This document shows positions 4,818 through 10,930 of a stretch of 49,914 nt of DNA, one piece after another. The notes under the pieces are model-generated. The model worked only from the letters and a program-made list of their open reading frames with translations. It was not told the origin of the DNA and ran no database searches. Where the stretch lies: NCBI GenBank assembly GCA_028404565.1, contig JAOOBR010000007.1, forward strand, positions 1-49,914, written 5' to 3'. Source of the stretch: Pseudomonadota bacterium (GTDB lineage: Bacteria > Pseudomonadota > Gammaproteobacteria > Magnimaribacterales > D2472). The position numbers and the translations under genes were made by a program. Numbering within the stretch: position 1 is the first letter of the stretch; each line of letters starts with the position of its first letter.

Positions 4818-6086
4818 ATGGAATTCTTTTTTGACTCACCAATATTGATTCTTGCTACTGCATCAGCGCTAGGTTTATTTATGGCTTGGGGTATTGGAGC
4901 CAACGATGTAGCTAATGCAATGGGAACTTCAGTTGGAAGTAAAGCTATAACACTTAAACAAGCAGTTATCATAGCTGCTATTTTTGAATTTCTTGGAGCC
5001 TATCTAGCTGGTGGTGAAGTCACCTCCACTATCAGAAAAGGAATCGTAGACCCTAAAATATTTCAAGATGATCCAGATATATTTATTTTGGGCATGATGT
5101 CTTGTCTTTTAGCTGCAGGATTATGGCTTCTTCTTGCTTCTAGAAGGGGCTGGCCTGTATCTACAACTCATTCAATAGTTGGAGCAATTGTGGGATTTGC
5201 ATTAATCTCAAAAGGCGCTTCTTCTGTATCATGGGATAAAATACTAGAAATAGCTAGCAGTTGGGTTACTTCTCCATTAATATCAGGCTTTCTTGCTTTT
5301 TTTATATATCTTTCAGCAAAAAAATTAGTCCTTGAAAAAGAAAATCAGTTAAATGCAGCAGTAAATATTATTCCAATATATTCATTTTTGGTGACTCTAG
5401 TTATTTGCCTAGTAACTACAAAAAAAGGGCTTAAGTATGTTGGCTTAGTTTGGAGTGATAGCGAGGTGCTAACTTACTCGGTAATTATAAGTATCCTTGT
5501 TTCTATTGTTACAGCAATTTTTTTACGTTTGAATAAAGAATCTCTAAGATCTGAAAATAAATATGGACTGGGGGGTGTAGAAGGTGCTTTTGGCATTCTA
5601 ATGATTATTACTGCATGCAGTATGGCATTTGCTCACGGTTCAAATGATGTTGCAAATGCAATTGGTCCACTTGCAGCAATTGTAAATGTTGTTCAATCTG
5701 ATGGTTTGATTGATACGACCTCCGCATCACCATCATGGATTTTGTTCTTAGGTGCTTTTGGTATCGTTTTTGGACTTGCTACTTTGGGCCATAAAGTAAT
5801 CAAAACTGTTGGAGAGAAGATAACAAAACTAACACCATCACTTGGGTTCTCTGCAAATATGGCAACATCAACTACTGTAGTTTTAGCAAGCTATATGGGA
5901 TTTCCAATATCAACAACACATACTCTTGTTGGAGCTGTTATAGGTGTTGGACTTGTTAACAGCGTAAAAGCTCTAGATTTAAAACAAATTTTAAAGATTT
6001 TCTTGTCTTGGATAATTACTATTCCAATAGGAGCAGTTTTTACAATTGTATTTTATTTAATATTAAGATTTATTTTAATTACTTAA
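4818..6086 (+). CDS. Pit-family inorganic phosphate transporter
   Basis: This 422-residue, roughly 10-12-helix protein carries both halves of the Pit/PiT signature: GANDVANAMGTSVGSKAI near residues 27-44 and GSNDVANAIGPLAAIV near 274-289, plus the paired PVSTTHSIVGAIVG and PISTTHTLVGAVIG motifs. Family members are low-affinity, ion-coupled phosphate symporters in the inner membrane. It is followed, one base apart and in opposite direction, by a TetR regulator. Downstream lie a TonB receptor and a phytase, so phosphate is the likely substrate. A different anion such as sulfate is possible for some members. Confidence 0.93.
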   Translation: MEFFFDSPILILATASALGLFMAWGIGANDVANAMGTSVGSKAITLKQAVIIAAIFEFLGAYLAGGEVTSTIRKGIVDPKIFQDDPDIFILGMMSCLLAAGLWLLLASRRGWPVSTTHSIVGAIVGFALISKGASSVSWDKILEIASSWVTSPLISGFLAFFIYLSAKKLVLEKENQLNAAVNIIPIYSFLVTLVICLVTTKKGLKYVGLVWSDSEVLTYSVIISILVSIVTAIFLRLNKESLRSENKYGLGGVEGAFGILMIITACSMAFAHGSNDVANAIGPLAAIVNVVQSDGLIDTTSASPSWILFLGAFGIVFGLATLGHKVIKTVGEKITKLTPSLGFSANMATSTTVVLASYMGFPISTTHTLVGAVIGVGLVNSVKALDLKQILKIFLSWIITIPIGAVFTIVFYLILRFILIT

Positions 6087-6087
6087 C

Positions 6088-6672
6088 TTATTCTTTAGCA
6101 GTACATGCAATCAAATAAGACGCAGAAGCCCTGATAGCCTCACTTTTTCCAACATTATTTAACTCTTTGTCCATTTTATAATTAAGTGAAAGTATAGAAA
6201 TAATTATTTGTGTTAGAACAAGGAAAACACCTTTTTCATTAAACATAGACGGAAGATCTATATTCAATGAGACATATTTATTTATCTGCTCAGACAAAGA
6301 CATCAAAGATTCTAAATCAGAGTTAATTAAAGAACTTTGAAGAATGAGTTTTTTTGATGGAACTGAATTGTCAAAATAACTTATAAGAATTGTTACAACT
6401 TCATCAAGAACGCTCTGAAGATTGGCATCGTTATGAGTTTTGATATTTGATTTCATGAATGTTGAACATTCATTAAAAAGCTCGTTTAATAAATAAGCTT
6501 TAATATGATCAGGTGTTGGGAAAAACTTATAAGTTGATGTTCTTTTAAGTTGAGATAATTTAGAAACTCTTGCAATTGTGATATCAGAAACATCGCCATC
6601 TTCGAGAATTTCTCTTGCAGTTTTAATAATAATTTTAACTCTATCTCTGCTTCTCTTTTGTTTTGCGATCAT
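6088..6672 (-). CDS. TetR/AcrR-family transcriptional regulator
   Basis: The N-terminal 60 residues form a TetR-type helix-turn-helix: KIIIKTAREILEDGDVSDITIARVSKLSQLKRTSTYKFFPTPDHIKAYLL matches the usual A-x-x-L-x-x-x-G ... T-x-x-x-I-A-x-x-x ... Y-x-x-F-x-x-K/P-x-x-L pattern. The remaining about 135 residues are an all-helical ligand domain that I cannot assign. At 194 residues it has normal length. It is divergent from the TonB receptor gene across 164 bases holding an inverted repeat, so it may control the receptor, itself, or both. The effector is unknown. Confidence 0.9.
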   Translation of the reverse strand: MIAKQKRSRDRVKIIIKTAREILEDGDVSDITIARVSKLSQLKRTSTYKFFPTPDHIKAYLLNELFNECSTFMKSNIKTHNDANLQSVLDEVVTILISYFDNSVPSKKLILQSSLINSDLESLMSLSEQINKYVSLNIDLPSMFNEKGVFLVLTQIIISILSLNYKMDKELNNVGKSEAIRASASYLIACTAKE

Positions 6673-6770: not shown

Positions 6771-6804
6771 ACGTAACGCTTCTGTAACAATCTAAATGTA
6801 TATT
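6771..6804 (+). promoter_or_regulatory. Candidate Pho box with -10 element upstream of TonB receptor
   Basis: Two 7-base units, ACGTAAC (6771-6777) and CTGTAAC (6782-6788), are separated by 4 bases and so repeat every 11 bases, as in the PhoB box CTGTCAT-N4-CTGTCAT. After 10 bases comes TATATT (6799-6804), a 5/6 match to the -10 hexamer, preceded by TG one base off the extended position. Spacing of a Pho box about 10 bases before the -10 is what PhoB-activated promoters show. The first unit matches the consensus poorly. Confidence 0.45.
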
Positions 6805-6836: not shown

Positions 6837-9359
6837 ATGAAAAATATCCATTTATATCTTTTAATTTTTGTTGTTCCATTTGCATTCTCTCAGGAAGATA
6901 CAGAAAATGTTGAGGAGTTGGTTGTTGTTGGAACAAAAGCTAGCATTATCTCTGCAATAGAAAAGCAAAGGGAATCTAATCAAATTGTATCTGTTGTAGA
7001 TTCAGATGCATTAGGCGAATTTCCAGATACTACTGCAGCAGAGGCCTTGAGAAGGATCTCAGGTATTTCAGTTGAAAATGATCAAGGGGAAGGAAGATAT
7101 GTTACGGTAAGAGGCCTTTCAGGAGATTTAAATACTATTGCTGTTAATGGCGCAACTGTTCCTGCACCAGAAGGTGGAAGAAAAGTAATGCTTGACGGAC
7201 TGCCAACAGAACTTCTAGATTCTATTGAAGTATACAAATCTCTTACTCCTGATCAAGATTCTGATTCAATCGGTGGAAGAATTGAGTTTAATACTAAAAG
7301 TGCTTTAGATTTAGATGGCACTTATTTTAAGTTAAAAGCAAACACTTTGTGGAATGAACAAACTTCAAATAGTAATAATCCAAAAGTTTCCATTACCTAT
7401 GGAGATATGATTAATGAAAATGTAGGACATATAATAGGTTTTACTTCATCTGAGAAACAAATAATTACTTATAACAATGAAACAGGATTTCCTGGCTGGG
7501 ATCTTTTTGATAATGGAAATTATGCGATAGGTGATGATTTTGAAAGCAGATATTATGATTTAACAAGAGAAAGACTAGGCTTAACATATGACATTGACTT
7601 TATGATTGATGACGAAACATCTATGTATGCAAACATTCTTTGGAATGAGTATGTAGATGATGAGCTCAGGTATAAAGATGAGTACAAAATGAGAGATGAT
7701 CAAACTGATGTTACTGCTTCAGGAAGTACTATCACAGAAATAAGAAGAGATGCAGAAACAAGAGTTAGGCAAGAAGTTAGAACAATAAGAACATTTATTT
7801 TAGGTGGTAATACAATTGTCAATGATTGGGATGCAGAGTTTGCATATACTAATTCTTTTGCTGAAGAGGATGATACTGATAATGTTGATGCAAAGTTTAG
7901 AAGTAGTACATTTGATGCGGATGATTGCGGAGGACCTTGTGGATATTTTGATTATTCAGATCCTAAGAAACCACTTATGACCCTAACTAATGGTGCTCAG
8001 GGTATTTATGATCCATCAAATATGGGCGTAGATGAAATAGAAGAAGAAGATTCTGTTATTCAAGATAGAGAATCATCATTTAAGGTTGATTTTACAAAAG
8101 AAGGTTTTATGGTTTCTGATGTCCCAACGACTTTAAAATGGGGTCTAAAATATAGCACTCGAGAAAAAGAAAAAAATGTTGAAGGTTACAGCTGGGAACC
8201 TGATTTTGTTCAATCAGATTTTAACGTAAACACTTCGCCAGTTAACTGGCCTTGGCCTACTGTTTTTGGTCCTATGGCTGATCCTGCAACAATATTTGCT
8301 CTTCAGGGCACATTCGGTCCATATGGAACAAGTGATTACGGAGATGACTACGTTTCTGAAGAAGATATCTTTGCAGTTTATGGAATGGGCACAATGGAAT
8401 TTGACAATGCAATTGTAATAGCGGGTTTAAGGGTAGAGGATACTTCATTTACTACAGTTGGATACAATGATGGTGATCCTAACGATATTATTAATGGTTC
8501 AAAAGATTACACATTTGTATCACCAAGTCTAAACGTAAAATACTTTGTTGACGACAACACAATAGTTCGTGGTGCAGTCTGGAGAGCTTTATCTAGACCA
8601 GGGTTTGGTGAATCTGCTCCTGTAGCAGATATTGCTCTAGAATCAGATGGAACTTATGAGGGCGAAATGGGTAATCCAGACTTAGAGCCATATGAAGCTA
8701 CGAATCTAGATATTAGCGTTGAAAGATATAACGATAATGGAGCAGTATCATTAGGCTTTTTCAGAAAAGATATTGATAATGCTATTTATCCTCAACTTAC
8801 ACAAGGTGTTGTTGCAGGGTATAACTTTAGTGAATTATTAACATTTGTTAACAGCGATAAGTCAACCGTTGACGGAATTGAATTTAATTTATTTAGAGAA
8901 TTCGATGATCTTCCTGAACCATTTGATGGGTTATTTATTTCAGTTAATTTAACAAAAGTTGATGCAGAAAGTGATATTCCTAGTGATAACGGTGTGTTTA
9001 CTGTTCCATTTAGGAAACTTGCTGATAATACAAGTAATATATCAATTGGATACGATAAGGGCAAACTAGATATGAGACTTTCATTAGCTCAAAGAAGTGA
9101 TTACCTAGACTACCTCGCTGATGATGATATAGAAACTACCGTAGAAGATTTAAATTATGACAATATTAGATTTACTGATGATCACTCACAAATAGACTTT
9201 ACAGCTAAGTACTACTTGAATGATAATTTAACTCTTAAATTTGACTTAATAAATATAAATGATGAACCAGAATTTTATTACTGGGGAAACACATCGAGGT
9301 TATCGCAATATGATGAATACGGAACAAGCGCAACAATTGGTTTTACATACACCTATTAA
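6837..9359 (+). CDS. TonB-dependent outer-membrane receptor
   Basis: A Sec signal peptide (MKNIHLYLLIFVVPFAFSQ) is followed by a TonB-box-like stretch (EELVVVGTKA). A plug domain follows (about 40-160) with FPDTTAAEALRRISGISV, RYVTVRGLSGDLNTIAVNG and the end motif IEVYKSLTPDQDSDSIGGRIEF. The rest is a beta-barrel ending in an aromatic residue (TIGFTYTY). At 840 residues it is a typical receptor of the class found widely in marine and Xanthomonas/Caulobacter-type bacteria. One extracellular loop carries two close cysteines (DDCGGPCGYF). The phytase gene overlaps its 3' end, suggesting uptake of an organophosphate or its breakdown product. The substrate is inferred. Confidence 0.93.
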   Translation: MKNIHLYLLIFVVPFAFSQEDTENVEELVVVGTKASIISAIEKQRESNQIVSVVDSDALGEFPDTTAAEALRRISGISVENDQGEGRYVTVRGLSGDLNTIAVNGATVPAPEGGRKVMLDGLPTELLDSIEVYKSLTPDQDSDSIGGRIEFNTKSALDLDGTYFKLKANTLWNEQTSNSNNPKVSITYGDMINENVGHIIGFTSSEKQIITYNNETGFPGWDLFDNGNYAIGDDFESRYYDLTRERLGLTYDIDFMIDDETSMYANILWNEYVDDELRYKDEYKMRDDQTDVTASGSTITEIRRDAETRVRQEVRTIRTFILGGNTIVNDWDAEFAYTNSFAEEDDTDNVDAKFRSSTFDADDCGGPCGYFDYSDPKKPLMTLTNGAQGIYDPSNMGVDEIEEEDSVIQDRESSFKVDFTKEGFMVSDVPTTLKWGLKYSTREKEKNVEGYSWEPDFVQSDFNVNTSPVNWPWPTVFGPMADPATIFALQGTFGPYGTSDYGDDYVSEEDIFAVYGMGTMEFDNAIVIAGLRVEDTSFTTVGYNDGDPNDIINGSKDYTFVSPSLNVKYFVDDNTIVRGAVWRALSRPGFGESAPVADIALESDGTYEGEMGNPDLEPYEATNLDISVERYNDNGAVSLGFFRKDIDNAIYPQLTQGVVAGYNFSELLTFVNSDKSTVDGIEFNLFREFDDLPEPFDGLFISVNLTKVDAESDIPSDNGVFTVPFRKLADNTSNISIGYDKGKLDMRLSLAQRSDYLDYLADDDIETTVEDLNYDNIRFTDDHSQIDFTAKYYLNDNLTLKFDLININDEPEFYYWGNTSRLSQYDEYGTSATIGFTYTY

Positions 9360-10440
9360 TCTTTTTAATAACTTCAAAAAGGCAAGTGTAGTACTTGCCT
9401 TTTTTTTGACTACTTCTACTTTAGCAGATTATGTTGAGGTTGAAGCAATTTACGAAACACCCCCTGTTGTAACTAAGGGTGATGCAGCTGATGATCCTGC
9501 AATATGGGTAAATAAAAGTAATCCCTCAAATTCAATCATATTTGGTACTGATAAAAAAAGTGGAATTTATAGTTACAACCTTCAAGGGCAGGAGCTGAGC
9601 TATACAAATCTTGGTAACATTAATAACATTGATACAAGAACTATCAATGTTGGAGATGATGAGAATGTATCTGACTTTACTTTCCTTTTTGCATCTAATA
9701 GAACTTTAGGATCAGTCGATTTATGGGTATTTGAAGATAATGAAACAAGACAAAAACTTGAAACTGACTCATGGCAAGTTCCATCAAAACCATCATTTAG
9801 AGGTAAATCAGACATTATCGTATATGGTATATGCGCCGGAATAGATCCAAAGTATGGATTAGTTGCTTTTCTGACAGAAGATACTGGTCCTCGGGTTGAA
9901 GTATGGAACCTAACTGAGAATGGCCTTGATCTTATAACAACGTTTAATAATGGCGGAGAATCCGAGGGATGTGTTTATGATGATTTAAATAGGACCCTTT
10001 TTATATCAGAAGAAGAGGTAAGAGGGGTTTTAAAAGCTTATAGACTCGATGATAGTTTTGATTTTTCTGAGCCCTATATTGTCGATTCTAGGGAAGGTCA
10101 AATCGGTGGTGATCCAGAGGGCGTATCATTATATAAAACACCAAACAATTCAGGTTATTTAATTTTATCCTCTCAGGGAGATAGTAAGTTTAATCTGTAT
10201 GATAGAAATTATCCTTATGATTACATTACAAGTTTTAGAATAGGCTCTTCAAAAAGTATAGACAATGTGACTGATACAGATGGTATAGAAACAATCAACT
10301 TCAATCTGAGTGAAGAGTATCCAGAAGGCATTATGATTGCCCAAGATGGTCTTAATAAAGATGGGTATAGGACTAAAAGACAAAACTTCAAAATTGTCTC
10401 ATTCAAAGATGTTCTTGATGCTTTAGATGTCATTAGATAA
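9337..10440 (+). CDS. Beta-propeller phytase (3-phytase family), secreted
   Basis: The mature sequence has the phytase-family motifs GDAADDPAIWVN, FGTDKKSGIYSYNLQG, EGCVYDDLNRTLFISEEE and DPEGVSLYKT, with a late TDGIETINFNLSEEYPEGIMIAQDG. Such enzymes are six-bladed, calcium-dependent propellers that release phosphate from phytate. A Sec signal, FKKASVVLAFFLTTSTLA|D, precedes it and has no lipobox, so the product is periplasmic or exported. The start is uncertain. TTG 9337 gives the shortest usual-codon leader; ATG 9310 or 9259 would add residues, and ATT 9355 would give the neatest signal peptide. All overlap or nearly touch the receptor gene. Its signal-peptide codons contain a terminator hairpin (see 9376-9407). 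Confidence 0.9.
   Translation: MVLHTPINLFNNFKKASVVLAFFLTTSTLADYVEVEAIYETPPVVTKGDAADDPAIWVNKSNPSNSIIFGTDKKSGIYSYNLQGQELSYTNLGNINNIDTRTINVGDDENVSDFTFLFASNRTLGSVDLWVFEDNETRQKLETDSWQVPSKPSFRGKSDIIVYGICAGIDPKYGLVAFLTEDTGPRVEVWNLTENGLDLITTFNNGGESEGCVYDDLNRTLFISEEEVRGVLKAYRLDDSFDFSEPYIVDSREGQIGGDPEGVSLYKTPNNSGYLILSSQGDSKFNLYDRNYPYDYITSFRIGSSKSIDNVTDTDGIETINFNLSEEYPEGIMIAQDGLNKDGYRTKRQNFKIVSFKDVLDALDVIR
9376..9407 (+). terminator. Intrinsic terminator inside the phytase signal-peptide codons
   Basis: AAAAAGGCAAGT (9376-9387) is a perfect 12-base complement of ACTTGCCTTTTT (9393-9404), with a 5-base loop, and the T-run continues to 9407. It starts 17 bases after the TonB-receptor stop, exactly where a receptor terminator would lie. 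It is also in frame within the phytase signal peptide (KKASVVLAFFL). Confidence 0.8.
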
Positions 10441-10930
10441 CGTCCTAGAGTTTATATCGAATAATTTACAATACTCGTATGTATTGATTCTTGTCTTTGC
10501 TTTTGCAGAGTCTTTGGTAATCGTCGGTAGCATTCTCTCAAGTGCAATTCTTTTTTCAATTTGCGTATTTCTTTATAACAACAATCTTCTTGATTTATAT
10601 AGCATAGTTGCTTTAGCTATGATTGGAGCGCATGCGGGCGATGTTATTAGCTTTGTTTTAGGAAAAAGATTTGGTCCACTTGTGCTTGAGACAAAGTTTT
10701 TTAAAAAAAGAGAGAGTATTATTGAGAGAGGAAATAATTTTATTGATAGATTTGGTCAACTTACAGTTGTATTGGGTAGATTTATACCTGCCATGAGGGC
10801 TATTGTTCCATTTTTAATAGGGATGACAGGTATGGAATTTATGAAATTCTATAGAGCATCTATTTTAGCTATTTCGGTATGGGGTTTTGGCCTTATAATA
10901 CTCACTACAGGATTAAGCTCAATTTTATAG
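10427..10930 (+). CDS. DedA-family membrane protein
   Basis: This 167-residue membrane protein has the DedA/SNARE-associated motifs GAHAGDVISFVLGKRFG (near residues 65-81) and FGQLTVVLGRFIPAMRAIVPFLIGMTGM (near 106-133), including the conserved G-R-F-x-P-x-x-R. Family members are inner-membrane proteins tied to envelope homeostasis and, in some cases, undecaprenyl phosphate or lipid translocation. It is somewhat shorter than the usual 200 residues. It overlaps the phytase end by 14 bases, so co-transcription is likely. Confidence 0.88.
   Translation: MSLDNVLEFISNNLQYSYVLILVFAFAESLVIVGSILSSAILFSICVFLYNNNLLDLYSIVALAMIGAHAGDVISFVLGKRFGPLVLETKFFKKRESIIERGNNFIDRFGQLTVVLGRFIPAMRAIVPFLIGMTGMEFMKFYRASILAISVWGFGLIILTTGLSSIL

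Follow-up and report, generated by a model that had tools for sequence, protein, structure and literature searches.

What does a perfect hairpin running into a T-tract do just behind the stop codon of one gene and, at the same time, within the signal-peptide codons of the next? Such a hairpin lies between a TonB-dependent receptor gene and a phytase gene in the window analyzed here (the whole 49.9-kb stretch of DNA, from a SAR86-type gammaproteobacterium). The genes and the repeat upstream of them are as follows.

6837–9359, + strand: TonB-dependent receptor gene (Pfam PF07715 and PF00593), stop codon TAA at 9357–9359
9310–10440, + strand: phytase gene (Pfam PF02333), probable start ATG 9310 or 9313
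6772–6788, + strand: Pho-box-like direct repeat upstream of the receptor gene, CGTAAC-N5-TGTAAC, 11-bp period

From this probable ATG, the phytase gene overlaps the receptor gene in the +1 frame by 47–50 nt, including the stop codon. Pho-box-like direct repeats (TGTNAC, 11-bp period), a pattern picked after inspecting the sequences, are present 5′ of 11 of 18 related receptors against a shuffle expectation of 0.1 (loci given with such repeats besides the window: L077–L083, L158, L161, L165, L175, and L088), which suggests PhoB control of the receptor-phytase pair. A PHO4-family phosphate transporter gene (4818–6086) just 5′ of the receptor region makes the neighborhood phosphate-themed; a small unclassified gene on the opposite strand (6088–6672) separates the two. 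At the other end, a VTT-domain gene (10427–10930) overlaps the phytase 3′ end by 14 nt (10427–10440), so this third gene is tightly packed too.

The hairpin and the signal peptide that it helps to encode consist of the following parts.

9376–9387, + strand: hairpin 5′ arm, AAAAAGGCAAGT, codons KKAS, with covariation support
9388–9392, + strand: hairpin loop, GTAGT, read from the sequence
9393–9404, + strand: hairpin 3′ arm, ACTTGCCTTTTT, last base of a V codon, LAF codons, and first two bases of the next F codon, with covariation support
9400–9407, + strand: T-run (U-tract), encoding Phe-Phe-Leu
9382–9426, + strand: hydrophobic core and c-region of the phytase signal peptide, ASVVLAFFLTTSTLA, by sequence reading; cleavage is expected after 9426

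The preliminary description of the locus had claimed a 12-base perfect stem with a 5-base loop and a T-run past the receptor stop, placed in frame within the phytase signal-peptide codons. Both points were confirmed: the stem is a perfect 12 bp that begins at the 17th base past the receptor stop (16 nt between), and the codons through the hairpin read K-K-A-S-V-V-L-A-F-F-L in the phytase frame. Only four pairs are GC. The T-run comprises eight T, five inside the stem and three beyond it, and because it lies partly within the stem a simple terminator scan missed the hairpin. Even so, a stable GC-containing stem is directly followed by a U-rich tract, as in an intrinsic terminator. The 29-nt hairpin folds with −14.3 kcal/mol compared with a shuffle mean of −3.8, and none of 200 shuffles was as good. 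When codons were resampled with the protein fixed, 3 of 600 samples folded equally well. Perfect stems of at least 12 bp with at least four GC pairs occur once in the window and in none of 20 Markov simulations. The fold of the 111-nt context taken whole was not unusual (z −1.35) and is uninformative. The identity of a riboswitch or known RNA family was rejected, the best overlapping score among Rfam leader and riboswitch families being 16.5 against a gathering threshold of 40.

To judge the background rate, we sampled 400 kb of one relative plus the window. These 450 kb of SAR86 sequence hold 16 strong terminator-like hairpins: 11 intergenic, 1 antisense, and 4 gene-sense. Two of the four gene-sense hairpins are the receptor-phytase junction itself, one in each of the two genomes sampled; with so few of this kind, a conserved hairpin at a gene start is unusual here. 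Separately, in genome G048 a 334-aa ORF contains, 45 nt from its start, a strong stem followed by a U-rich tail (L203:17242–17267, minus strand), a possible second terminator overlapping a gene start.

Of 107 genomes of the family, 78 have the phytase, as do 107 of the 203 in the order. We read the junction at every fetched locus whose upstream gene is a homologue of the window receptor, and two arrangements were found. In class A (35 genomes: family f1 with genera g1, g2, g6, g10 and some of g4, family f2, and family f4), the hairpin lies within the phytase signal-peptide codons, and the phytase frame can be traced back past the receptor stop without interruption; this class includes G049, which has lost the receptor, and G106, in which only the receptor end is on the contig. 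Three additional records (L088–L090) have the same arrangement. In class B (27 genomes: g5, g7, g8, g9, and family f3), a normal phytase ATG follows the hairpin, which itself comes after the receptor stop; also counted here is one f4 genome, L174, whose own phytase ATG is inside the stem. In a phytase tree, coding and non-coding states are interleaved, with coding L035 nested among non-coding sequences and non-coding f3 outside; this tree, which has long branches, gives no direction of change between the two states. The phytases of L072–L076 (family f2) are 92–93% identical to the window phytase despite belonging to a different family of the order, which suggests phytase transfer between SAR86 families.

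Class A stems differ in sequence (GGCAAGT, GGTAAGT, GAGCAAGC, GCCAGC, TAGCCAGT, TAGTCAGC, GAGCTAGT, ACTGCTGC, GCGATAAT, and others), yet pairing is kept in 32 of the 35 genomes. The preliminary description had named relatives with a broken stem and an intact signal peptide as evidence against its proposal. Such relatives do occur, in 3 of 35 cases (L159 and L162, stem broken; L166, no stem), and these losses imply that the element is strongly favored, not indispensable.

Selection on pairing beyond the needs of the protein, which had been put forward as one of the checks, was borne out. In alignment A1 (20 distinct codon-aligned class A sequences), 93.8% of pair cells hold standard pairs, and double changes occur at 7 of the 12 pairs, in 36 cells (shuffles, 10.9). 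Covariation scores 0.452, compared with 0.162 in shuffles (0 of 500 as high) and at most 0.10 in controls with slid partners; RNAalifold recovers the same helix unaided. In L004 both alanine codons of a pair have changed, GCA to GTA and GCC to ACC (to Val and Thr), with the pair retained, and in L088 both alanines have changed independently in the same pair-keeping way, indicating that the protein adjusts to the hairpin and not the reverse. In the codon-resampling null, at most 24 of 600 samples were as stable as the real sequence at 19 of 23 class A loci, which are related and not independent; two of the four failing loci (L159 and L162) are those with broken stems. Control windows further along the phytase gene (n = 247) gave a mean z of −0.18 (SD 1.03) by the same resampling. 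Hence the compensatory changes exceed what column make-up, slid partners, and coding need account for, and on this comparative evidence we conclude that the hairpin is demonstrably selected as RNA even as it encodes a working part of a protein.

The preliminary description had suggested that the phytase leader might start at a rare codon (TTG or ATT). The reading frame points elsewhere. All 22 class A loci tested have a +1 frame free of stop codons from an in-frame ATG at −47/−44 up to the receptor stop; of 20 class B loci, 18 have this frame closed. Resampling of receptor codons gives an open-frame probability of 0.3–0.7 per locus, with a product of about 1e-5 over loci that are related. Between the receptor stop and the DDPA motif, class A loci have spacings of at least eight different lengths (118 to 145 nt), all of them 1 mod 3, and the phytase frame is always +1 relative to the receptor. 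Besides the ATG at −47/−44 and a further one at −38, six loci (L159, L163, L166, L175, L183, and L184) have no ATG, GTG, or TTG before the hydrophobic core. In G049 (L069, G049:C4:20100–24600), the receptor gene is naturally deleted, and promoter-region sequence is fused to its last ~50 nt; the retained stretch begins 6 nt before the ATG at −47/−44 and serves as the N-terminal codons of the phytase, and a stop interrupts the relic in the receptor frame but not in the phytase frame. The open frame, the conserved ATG, and the G049 deletion together favor ATG 9310/9313. TTG 9337 and ATT 9355 are disfavored: the TTG is missing in several relatives, and both codons stem from conserved receptor codons. 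The phytase thus most likely starts at ATG 9310 or 9313, inside the receptor gene, which would give it a long n-region of 22–24 residues.

With the phytase start preceding the hairpin in the window, there is no room for a promoter between the two. Promoter-like sites around the junction are fewer than the shuffle expectation, and an internal phytase promoter looks unlikely; one such site lies within the receptor gene (9198–9227), in a set whose count is no higher than chance.

The position of the hairpin follows the receptor. The stem begins on average 15.6 nt (9–19) past the receptor stop in class A and 14.8 nt (12–18) in class B, whereas the phytase starts ~63 nt before the stem in class A and after it in class B. 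Where a phytase of the same family is not preceded by this receptor, it has an ATG of its own and lacks a comparable stem. This shared distance, and the absence of the stem at other phytases, tie the hairpin to the receptor mRNA and argue for a terminator-like element at the receptor 3′ end, upon which the phytase signal peptide is overprinted.

We therefore consider it probable that the hairpin is an intrinsic, and presumably partial, terminator of the receptor mRNA, with the phytase signal peptide overprinted on it and readthrough tuned by receptor ribosomes; termination, its efficiency, the receptor:phytase ratio, and the ribosome tuning are what we infer from sequence comparison. Transcription from the receptor promoter would mostly stop at ~9407, yielding mRNA for the receptor alone, and the readthrough fraction would carry the phytase, so that many receptors are made per phytase. 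The stem would supply the KAS...LAF part of the signal peptide and the U-tract its Phe/Leu core; since the phytase of this lineage, like that of most relatives, has its probable start within the receptor gene, its signal-peptide codons would be overprinted on the terminator. Readthrough would probably be tuned by receptor ribosomes pausing at the stop codon, 9–19 nt before the stem. In E. coli, the terminating ribosome partly represses intrinsic terminators that lie less than ~30 nt past a stop codon: TE was ~0.8 with a spacing of 18 nt in one context and 0.12 with a spacing of 17 nt in a second (PMC4824070). Terminators located in the first 100 bp of a coding region are reported to be efficient and free of ribosomal repression, as the leading ribosome still lags behind (PMC4824070). 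The window hairpin fits both situations, at 16 nt past the receptor stop and ~63–66 nt past the probable phytase ATG. Counting against a terminator are the stem losses in 3 of 35 class A genomes and the poor U-tracts of L053, L058, and L157, and most T in the T-run are supplied by Phe/Leu codons anyway; moreover, a short transcript ending at the hairpin would hold a phytase start without a stop codon.

A hairpin that is processed, or that protects the 3′ end and so stabilizes the receptor mRNA after cleavage with no termination of transcription, would also account for the fixed place behind the receptor stop. Consistent with this, stem pairing is better kept than the U-tract (the stems of L053, L058, and L157 are strong, with only 5 T of 8). 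A GC core followed by a T-rich tract is, however, the textbook layout of a terminator, and most versions, non-coding ones too, have 6–8 T of 8 after the GC core. The T content is above the codon null (class A mean 6.6 of 8 versus 5.9; class B mean 6.2), and we regard a purely processing or protective role as unlikely.

We also think it improbable that the hairpin is the translation-dependent attenuator of the preliminary description, at which transcription would terminate unless a ribosome in the phytase frame crosses the hairpin, phytase translation thereby licensing its own transcription. Part of that proposal stands: phytase ribosomes must cross the stem in class A, where the frame is held open through it, and ribosomes are able to suppress intrinsic terminators (PMC4824070; PMC5021804). 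However, the hairpin is equally conserved in the 27 class B genomes, whose phytases have an ATG of their own and whose stem is never crossed in full by a phytase ribosome, so that translation gating is not the conserved function. In addition, ribosomes ~63–66 nt past a start, as at this stem, are reportedly still behind RNA polymerase (PMC4824070), and neither an alternative antiterminator fold around the hairpin nor an Rfam family at threshold was found. Translation gating may add to control in class A.

A +1 frameshift element fusing receptor to phytase is highly improbable. Stems often stimulate frameshifting, and the constant +1 offset of the phytase frame would suit it, but in a fused protein the signal peptide or lipobox would be buried and the receptor C-terminal strand capped, in-frame ATGs are present in all relatives, and G049 has the phytase without the receptor. 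Least credible of all is a stem arising by chance or as a by-product of the signal peptide, in which alanine codons give GC...GC and Phe/Leu codons T-runs for free, a reading already contradicted by the codon null, the double compensatory changes (some altering amino acids), the hairpins kept where non-coding, and their absence at phytase signal peptides in other contexts.

The preferred reading, a partial terminator of the receptor mRNA, can be extended, tentatively and with more doubt than confidence, to an evolutionarily stable two-layer code: a single sequence would end the receptor mRNA and also direct export of the following protein, whose translation would begin at an ATG within the receptor gene. 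The receptor:phytase ratio would be set jointly by ribosomes moving over the receptor stop and over the overlapping phytase start, and the hairpin would persist while lineages changed between its coding and non-coding forms. Terminator-like hairpins within genes are usually dismissed as accidents; this one is RNA-selected yet protein-coding, a dual role spanning three of the four SAR86 families that carry the receptor-phytase pair. Literature on the SAR86 phytase or TonB receptor, or on a terminator within a downstream signal peptide, yielded nothing on point. The coding, non-coding, broken, and receptor-deleted versions form a natural series for testing near-stop termination against the stoichiometry of an uptake system, here for phosphorus scavenging in an abundant ocean lineage, and gene callers may misplace the starts of genes overprinted in this way.

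Three known systems resemble the SAR86 junction. The leader-gene terminator of the E. coli pyrBI attenuator is likewise intrinsic and lies within translated codons, close to where an open frame starts (PMC4824070). That system uses a leader peptide gene and UTP-dependent pausing, whereas the SAR86 codons belong to a real downstream enzyme, no sensing element was found, and in 27 genomes the hairpin stays outside the phytase frame or, in one of them, surrounds the phytase's own ATG. Li et al. (PMC4824070) put the tR2 terminator early in coding sequence or close to a stop codon, and the geometry is the same, less than 30 nt past a stop and within 100 bp of a start; theirs is an engineered reporter, whereas the SAR86 hairpin is natural and covarying. 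Partial intra-operon intrinsic terminators that set gene ratios are alike in that a hairpin and U-tract come shortly after the stop codon of a first gene in high demand and precede a second gene that is needed less. They differ in that the SAR86 hairpin is itself, in most lineages, the code for the second gene's signal peptide.
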